In this document: piece by piece, positions 662 to 1,515 of the stretch | Numbering within the stretch: the first letter of the stretch is position 1 | How the letters are laid out: the number at the start of each line of letters is the position of its first letter | From: Filimonas lacunae | Lineage (GTDB): Bacteria > Bacteroidota > Bacteroidia > Chitinophagales > Chitinophagaceae | DNA length: 64,000 nucleotides | Reading direction: 5' to 3' | NCBI RefSeq assembly: GCF_002355595.1 | Contig: NZ_AP017422.1 | Span: 6,080,823-6,144,822 of the forward strand | The notes under the pieces: model-generated | Told to the model about the DNA's origin: nothing | Databases searched by the model: none | What the model saw: only the letters and a program-made list of their open reading frames with translations | Program-made: the position numbers and the translations under genes

Positions 662-1257
662 GGTTACCCTACAGCAACTTCCCGCCAGCCTGTAAATGAT
701 TTTAGCCTTACTGCAATCTATTCAAATAACCCATGCGCCATTTTTGGCTAACCAAAACTCACTTTAGGTTAGCCTGCAACTAGTTCAGGTTAGACGGGAC
801 TCATTTTTAGTTACCTAAAACTAAGTTTATGCTACCTGCATGCATTTTTGGTTAACCCAAAATCAGTGTTAGCTAACCTCAAAGATTTTAAGGTTAACCT
901 ACAGCCAGTTTCAGTTAACCTAAAACAATTACCAACTACCCCAAAATACAGCCAGGCAACCCCGCAATAACTCCAGGTTATGTTCGTGCAATTGCCAAAA
1001 GTTATATAGTAATTTTTCGCCAACTAATAAGCAATTCAGGTTAGCTGAAAGTCATTTTAGGTTAACCTGTATCCATTTCAGGCTAACCTAAAATGAATAC
1101 AAGCTGGCTTAAAATCATTTCAGGCTAACCATAACTGGTTTTAGGGTTAGCCTGAAATGATCTTTGGCTACCCTAAAATGGTGGCAAGCTAACCTAAACT
1201 GATTGTAGGGTAGCCTGGACTGACTTTAGATTACCTTAAAATGTTTTTGAATTAACC
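662..1257. repeat. Degenerate 21-bp tandem array with palindromic GGTTAACC core
   Basis: GGTTAACC-like cores recur every 21 bp. Examples are at 746, 767, 788, 809, 830, 871, 892, 913, 1039, 1060, 1081, 1123, 1145, 1166, 1187, 1208, 1229 and 1250. From 662 to 1250 is exactly 28 periods, so phase is kept although single units drift by one base. Variants GGCTAACC, GGTTAGCC and GGCTACCC are common. The 13-bp spacers tend to TAAAATNATTTTA, itself a palindrome, so the whole unit has dyad symmetry. 21 bp equals two helical turns. There is no supported coding frame. The weaker continuation to about 1515 is listed separately. Confidence 0.9.
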
Positions 1258-1515
1258 GTGAATAATCTTATATCAATCACCATTTCAATGCAGACACACT
1301 ACAATTACTGTAGTGTGTCTGGCAATTACTATAAAGTTTGACAGAATTACTCCAATGTACCCTAAAAACAACTTCCGTTACCCTAGAGTGATTTTAGATT
1401 CATTGCGAATAAATTCACATTAACCAATATTTCAATGAGGCAACACTACAATCACTACAATGTACCAGGCAATTACTATAAACTGTGCTAGAATTACTCC
1501 ACTGTACCCTAAAAT
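1258..1515. repeat. Diverged continuation of the 21-bp array with a ~147-bp imperfect direct duplication
   Basis: Two copies of a block of about 105 bp (roughly 1261-1366 and 1408-1515) share GGCAATTACTATAAA (1321 and 1469), GAATTACTCC (1344 and 1491) and TGTACCCTAAAA (1356 and 1503). The offset is 147-148 bp, which is seven 21-bp periods. Array-like cores remain in phase at 1356, 1377, 1397 and 1418. The first copy contains a perfect hairpin, AGACACACTACA (1292-1303) with TGTAGTGTGTCT (1309-1320); the second copy lacks it. The stretch 1516-1591 holds nothing that I can recognise. Confidence 0.75.

Follow-up and report, generated by a model that had tools for sequence, protein, structure and literature searches.

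Phased 21-bp arrays of dyad-symmetric units in the genome of Filimonas and their possible origins

The nearest described element found for the arrays reported here is BrickBuilt, a minisatellite-bearing MITE of Porphyromonas gingivalis. It is composed of a 23-nt repeat, a leader, a tail and inverted-repeat ends (PMC4596501). Like BrickBuilt, the Filimonas arrays belong to Bacteroidota, are intergenic, consist of tandem units that follow one another without spacers and span about two helical turns each, and occur in many copies per genome. They differ from it in that BrickBuilt has one 23-nt sequence, whereas the arrays here have a step of 21 bp, dyad units and many unrelated sequences. Moreover, BrickBuilt carries inverted-repeat ends in that account (PMC4596501), and none were found around the array in which this analysis began. 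A search of the literature returned no description of the array class; most subscription papers lie outside the coverage of the search, and this is a weak negative.

The usual explanation of a bacterial minisatellite is slippage of a single sequence. The cyanobacterial STRR heptamer arrays have short units, are intergenic and are scattered in the genome. In heptamer arrays such as TAACTGA and STRR the sequence of 7 nt is fixed, the unit does not span two helical turns and there is no dyad unit. REPs can be grouped by shared sequence into families, and they fold into hairpins. In plasmid centromere and iteron arrays, for instance parS of pSM19035, direct and inverted sites are bound cooperatively by dimers; such arrays sit beside rep/par genes and have one consensus. 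The Filimonas arrays, in contrast, lie on the chromosome, and both their number and the variety of their sequences are large. They share with the TAACTGA arrays short units and intergenic positions scattered in the genome (PMC4679880); the same source reports TAACTGA arrays in five Bacteroidetes too. With the REP/BIME elements they have in common repeated extragenic palindromes of 20–40 bp (PMC3733652). In contrast to REP/BIME elements, compensatory pairing is absent from the first array, and no sequence is common to the arrays. If a class sharing geometry only (21 bp, a dyad each turn) is real, it would suggest that either a nucleoprotein recognises spacing and symmetry or duplication proceeds by counts of helical turns. 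Both readings are directly testable on the array described below.

Period, register and surroundings of the window array

The window, which is the whole stretch of 64,000 nucleotides analysed, covers 6.08–6.14 Mb of the 7.81-Mb single-contig genome of Filimonas lacunae (G000; Chitinophagaceae). The array in it (the window array) sits between P0001 and a glycoside hydrolase family 3 (GH3) gene. The features are collected in Table 1.

Table 1. Features of the window array and its flanks (positions in the window)
Feature	Start	End	Strand	Remarks
P0001	104	625	-	173 aa; weakly DUF937-like, E 0.0085, below cut-off
Window array	655	1537		42 units x 21 bp (~880 bp); consensus CATTTTAGGTTAACCTAAAAT
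20-bp step	823	842		Register -1; from segmentation (823 to 843)
22-bp step	1116	1137		Register +1, grid restored; from segmentation (1116 to 1138)
137-bp higher-order repeat, copy 1	1231	1367		Spacing 147 = 7 x 21 bp
137-bp higher-order repeat, copy 2	1378	1514		75% identical, ungapped
Perfect 13-bp inverted repeat	1291	1321		5-nt loop; weak part of array; read by eye
Terminator-like hairpin GGCGCTCCT/AGGAGCGCC	1585	1613	-	A-run on + strand; read by eye
GH3 gene	1640	3799	-	Glycoside hydrolase family 3; gene end 103 bp from array

An earlier note on this DNA had described a 21-bp array that keeps its phase for about 40 periods. Autocorrelation of positions 660–1260 gave a lag-21 identity of 0.51 against a null of 0.26 (z 13.0), and the array is thus real. 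Further peaks were seen at lags 42, 63 and 84, and a periodic peak was still present at lag 504, the longest lag tried. At lags 210–336 the peak was one base short because of a one-base register shift within the array. Segmentation was carried out with steps of 19–23 permitted and a penalty of 3 or 6 bits per shift, and it gave 42 units. The score was 468, compared with 71 +/- 15 (maximum 92) in 20 Markov-1 simulations. A step of exactly 21 bp separates the units in 38 of 41 cases, the others being one step of 20 bp and two of 22 bp.

The segmentation also upheld the distance of 28 x 21 bp from 662 to 1250. The compensating one-base shifts of the earlier note came down to one opposite pair, the 20-bp step at 823 and the 22-bp step at 1116; a further 22-bp step is located at the far end of the array, from 1495 to 1517. 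The weaker cores at 1356, 1377, 1418 and 1503 were found on the grid within one base, and belong to the copies of the 137-bp repeat. Some units, at 990, 1264, 1285 and 1327, match the consensus poorly. The array was absent from the output of Tandem Repeats Finder at a score of 40.

The consensus is a 20-bp palindrome plus one base, centred on TTAA (between TT and AA), which bears out the dyad units with a palindromic spacer that had been claimed. Together with the 21-bp period, it places a dyad axis every 10.5 bp. Similarity between units is nearly flat over distance (0.49 at one unit, 0.47 at 13–20 units and 0.43 at 21–40 units). In an array of another genome of the family (G048), which was called young, it drops from 0.80 to 0.52, and a drop with distance is also seen in some other arrays (L166, L179 and L185). 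Lone copies of the unit were not in excess, with 8 forward sites, 5 of them inside the window array, against 10 in the reversed control. Lone operator copies were therefore dropped as a lead to a regulator.

The listed start of P0001 lies 30 bp from the near edge of the array, which is upstream of this gene. The closest relative of P0001 among the named genomes is a protein of Filimonas zeae (G002), 72% identical. On the other side, the array is probably not part of the GH3 transcript, since the terminator-like hairpin stands between them. No Rfam match was obtained across the array. A sub-threshold match to ncS54 at 1585–1662 (24.8 bits, cut-off 43) overlies the GH3 terminator, outside the array, and is probably due to chance.

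Arrays of the same step in the genome and in relatives

Sixty stretches of 20 kb were sampled from G000, of which 59 (1.18 Mb) were readable; L211 was all N and was left out. The stretches were scanned at lags 10–60 in windows of 168 with a threshold of 0.44; detection by lag 21 is biased towards arrays still in phase. Nineteen repeat places were detected. Lag 21 or 42 leads in 13 of them, and lag 18, 30 or 60 in the remaining 6. As an open frame overlaps all 19 places, codon usage was scored against 324 long open frames of G000. One of the 13 places (L192) is a coiled-coil gene. The other 12 period-21/42 arrays, overlapped by open frames of 65–219 codons, fell under the 5% quantile of the 324 genes in 11 cases, and L187 was at 7%. 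Among the six places of other periods, five were gene-like with quantiles of at least 10%, although in one of them (L186) the best frame contains a stop; the sixth (L159, period 30/60) was at 4.6% and may be non-coding. By these scores the G000 sample has 12 or 13 places unlike genes, and the period is 21/42 in 12 of them. Extrapolation from these 12 arrays in 1.18 Mb would give about 80 in the whole genome. At the centre of L155 and of both window-type arrays, no open frame exceeds 63 codons.

A profile (R1) of three window-array units revealed a second array of the same type at 402.5–403.2 kb of G000, and also matched a different array at 2.7035 Mb. Its matches were confined to 2 of 98 genomes of the family (its own and G048), and under stricter filters to 2 of 396 genomes of the order (its own and G250). 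The match in G250 was ruled out as a window-type array, being a different 21-bp repeat of four copies. Outside the family but within the order, one genome has a locus (L282, 1506–1590) at which the 21-bp unit ACGTCACCCTGAACTTGTTTC is repeated four times in tandem, the copies being near-identical.

The scan of 400 kb of F. zeae detected 12 places. Lag 21 or 42 leads in five of these, lag 11 in two and lag 14 in one; the other four are led by multiples of 3 and lie inside frames of at least 240 codons. Arrays of the same step elsewhere, which the earlier note had named as support, are thus present both in G000 and in F. zeae. A second Filimonas genome (G001, 400 kb) gave five places, three of 11 bp, one of 19 and one of 15, and no 21-bp array in the part scanned. 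Four genomes of other genera (G006, G056, G086 and G107; 400 kb) gave 12 places, two led by 21 and five by 11, the latter all in G086 and G107. One of the two lag-21 places is a 7-bp repeat and the other is weak (0.443), with no visible repeat. The 80 loci obtained from a search for P0001 relatives included two led by 21, of which L060 is a 7-bp repeat and L079 is at the threshold (0.44).

Twenty-two arrays (16 of G000, one of G048 and five of F. zeae) were segmented, with bounds set by hand and shifts penalised. Of the 453 steps in these, 441 measure exactly 21 bp, with a mean unit identity to the consensus of 53–90%. The consensus differs from array to array, for example GGTTAACC, CAGAAAnTTTTCTG, GGAAAGCTTCC, CCGTTTGnnCAAACGG and GATGAGTGACTCATC, and some arrays group in families. 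Because of these differences, one sequence-specific protein cannot explain the class. Dyad symmetry was significant (p<0.05) in 18 of the 22 arrays, the four lacking it being L157, L174, L156 and the F. zeae array at G2A 340. When the window array and L154, L155 and L156, which were found by likeness to it, are left out, 15 of 18 arrays are dyadic. The same test was positive for 6 of 60 random segments, and its false-positive rate is thus about 10%, not 5%. The common period, the class itself and, in most arrays, the symmetry are matters of observation.

Higher-order repeats occur in multiples of 21 (42, 84, 147 and 252). F. zeae has a homogeneous array, called young, with 15 units at 0.90. 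In G000, L166 2215–2740 and L179 6440–6760 are copies of a single array that lie far apart on the chromosome and are 82% identical over 326 bp; their flanks are unrelated and their edge motif is related. The L166 array lies 0.2 kb from a tRNA-Gly gene.

Positions and neighbours of the arrays

The earlier note had set conservation of position beside orthologous genes as support for its claim, and absence from close relatives as evidence against it. At the syntenic locus of F. zeae, P0001 (74% identical) and GH3 flank a RidA-like gene (assigned by eye), with no array between them. The expectation failed for a second array as well: the ROK gene beside L213 has orthologues in F. zeae and G001 (85% and 78% identical), and no array was present within 1.5 kb on each side of either. 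The absence of arrays at both orthologous loci indicates that array positions are lineage-specific at the two loci compared. For the DinB-like neighbour of L154 there was no match in G001 or G002, and the best match of the L185 neighbour was merely 46% identical and without an array.

Genes beside arrays are of many kinds and in many orientations, with three related pairs among direct neighbours. L155 8440–8800 and an F. zeae array (G2B, G002:C4 ~542.96–543.28 kb), which have different consensus sequences, lie directly before the starts of related genes (MKKYKDF...; 31% over 207 aa) in the two species. L174 13780–14262 and L202 16931–17581 lie upstream of related regulator genes, CRP-like by eye, that are 28% identical over 153 aa. 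The neighbours of L213 and of the array at G2A 104.8 kb are related (36% over 118 aa), are OmpA-like by eye and are found on the 3' side. These three pairs probably represent common families. As few neighbours recur, a shared neighbour gene was set aside as an explanation of the class. No replication or partition gene was recognised by eye among the neighbours, few of which were scanned against Pfam.

A shared end motif was found in three arrays only (L166, L179 and L157:9756) and was discarded as a feature of the class; a convincing inverted-repeat end was seen only around L157 9087–9829. The repeat at L015 1560–2302 (G000:C1 ~7.413 Mb) keeps a 21-bp phase, contains a duplication of 252 bp (12 x 21) and looks like a MITE carrying an array.

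Constraint on the arrays and competing explanations

Conservation in the window array is uneven over the columns of the unit (0.33–0.90; chi2 p 1.6e-12). It is mirrored about the dyad (0.58, p 0.011, after allowing for A/T versus G/C columns), a value that a palindrome decaying at equal rates reached in 0 of 60 simulations. Taken alone, mirrored conservation has p<0.05 in 6 of 22 arrays, and pooled over the 22 its p is 0.001. The equal decay over columns expected of a drifting minisatellite was not seen in the window array. Conserved columns mirrored in this manner suggest the pattern of a two-fold symmetric binding site.

Length changes were counted in gapped alignments of three array pairs, which gave 130 substitutions and 5 indels. 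In a small control of 289 columns, taken from non-coding parts of G000/F. zeae alignments, there were 52 substitutions and 15 indels. Indels are thus fewer in the array pairs (Fisher p 7e-5, or p 0.01 with an assumed ratio of 1:10). The effect of indels on the phase was simulated by star-like decay, with 60 runs per setting and the observed lag identity of 0.49 as the target. With 1 indel per 50 substitutions, 47% of the runs reached the target at a divergence of 0.35 and 3% at 0.45; with 1 per 20, the corresponding values were 5% and 0%. No run reached the target once indels were as frequent as 1 per 10 substitutions or more (60 runs at each of three divergences). In this model, plain decay would hold the observed phase only with fewer than about 1 indel per 20–50 substitutions. 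The decayed minisatellite, which the earlier note gave as the simpler alternative, would be compatible with the phase at 1 per 50, borderline at 1 per 20 and incompatible at 1 per 10 or more, the small control being the source of the neutral ratio. For the array pairs themselves the ratio comes to 1 per 26. Plain decay is borderline at such a value, and the phase-keeping argument against it is therefore suggestive, not conclusive.

We tentatively favour, with a probability of about 0.38, the reading that the arrays are platforms for putative two-fold symmetric DNA-binding proteins and that their spacing is under selection. The class would be genome-wide, non-coding and phase-locked, built of a half-unit of ~10.5 bp (one helical turn) that alternates in orientation; the alternation would give rise to the 21-bp period, with one dyad axis per turn, all on the same face of the helix. 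Founder palindromes unrelated to one another would have been amplified at many intergenic places, after which base changes would be tolerated and length changes mostly removed. Most likely, the arrays would then serve as cooperative platforms for one protein of this kind with loose specificity, or for several, in a nucleoid-type or a parasitic nucleoprotein filament. The dimeric protein proposed in the earlier note is consistent with the window array, where independent halves and mirrored conservation are as expected for the half-sites of a dimer; what falls is its extension to the class as one sequence-specific protein. One classical regulator is also hard to reconcile with sequences so varied and with positions that are lineage-specific. 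On the same grounds, neutral duplication stays a near-equal rival, in which any sequence is duplicated in tandem in steps of whole helical turns (21 bp here, 11 bp in relatives) to form a satellite without function. Such a process would account for the differing sequences, the positions not conserved at two loci, the higher-order repeats in multiples of 21, the young F. zeae array and the 11-bp arrays in G001, F. zeae (two, beside five of 21/42), G086 and G107. It does not predict the mirrored column conservation or the shortage of indels in array pairs, and an indel ratio of 1:10 never gave the observed phase. The platform reading can be carried further, and then becomes doubtful: Filimonas would have a bacterial counterpart of phased satellite DNA, in which dozens of unrelated palindromes are each fixed in arrays at two turns, length and not sequence is selected, a symmetric protein polymerises by reading geometry over letters, and relatives use an 11-bp, one-turn version.

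That the arrays are mobile elements of the MITE type bearing a minisatellite, as is BrickBuilt, is unlikely. The copies at L166 and L179, which have a related edge motif and no common flanks, could be attributed to transposition of this sort, and the array at L015 1683–2250 lies within an inverted repeat of 36 nt (86% complementary). The window array, however, has no inverted repeat outside it within 620–1600, inverted matches in self-comparison with 1.5-kb flanks were confined to array interiors, and the repeat sequence is not common to the arrays. Folding of the palindromic units into tandem DNA or RNA hairpins, like those of REP/BIME elements, is very improbable. In the window array, halves match within the same unit (0.429) as they do between different units (0.432), and at the second axis the values are 0.455 and 0.460. 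Compensatory pairing within units was thus absent at either axis, and hairpins were rejected for this array, over which Rfam was also silent; halves of one unit vary independently, and base pairing is not what is kept. Weak pairing within units was found at one axis of L210 (z 2.1) and L189 (z 2.3). L187 and L167 gave a strong signal at one axis (z 3.3 and 2.9) and an opposite one at the other (z -3.6 and -2.6), which was read as alternation of unit types. As 21 bp is seven codons, the arrays might also encode a seven-residue repeat or be the remains of one, and the open frames over the 12 sampled arrays, together with the 7% quantile of L187, point this way. We consider it scarcely credible. 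The window array has 19–38 stops in each of the six frames and no ORF above 63 aa inside, by which a coding heptad repeat is refuted there. For the 12 sampled arrays it was rejected by codon usage in 11. Differences between L166 and L179, the one pair tested, are spread evenly over codon positions (17/15/18), and the dyad symmetry of the arrays argues against coding as well.

Arrays of other short periods were also noted. In G001, 11-bp (one-turn) arrays are located at ~45.2, 147.9 and 240.2 kb of G001:C1, and those of G086 and G107 are at L247, L248, L250, L252 and L253. Near P0001 relatives of Flavobacterium, arrays with a period of 8 bp are present, for example at L088 4662, L106 2739 and L118 2742. 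The 11-bp arrays at L250 and L252 have a forward run followed by an inverted one, and each thereby forms one large dyad.
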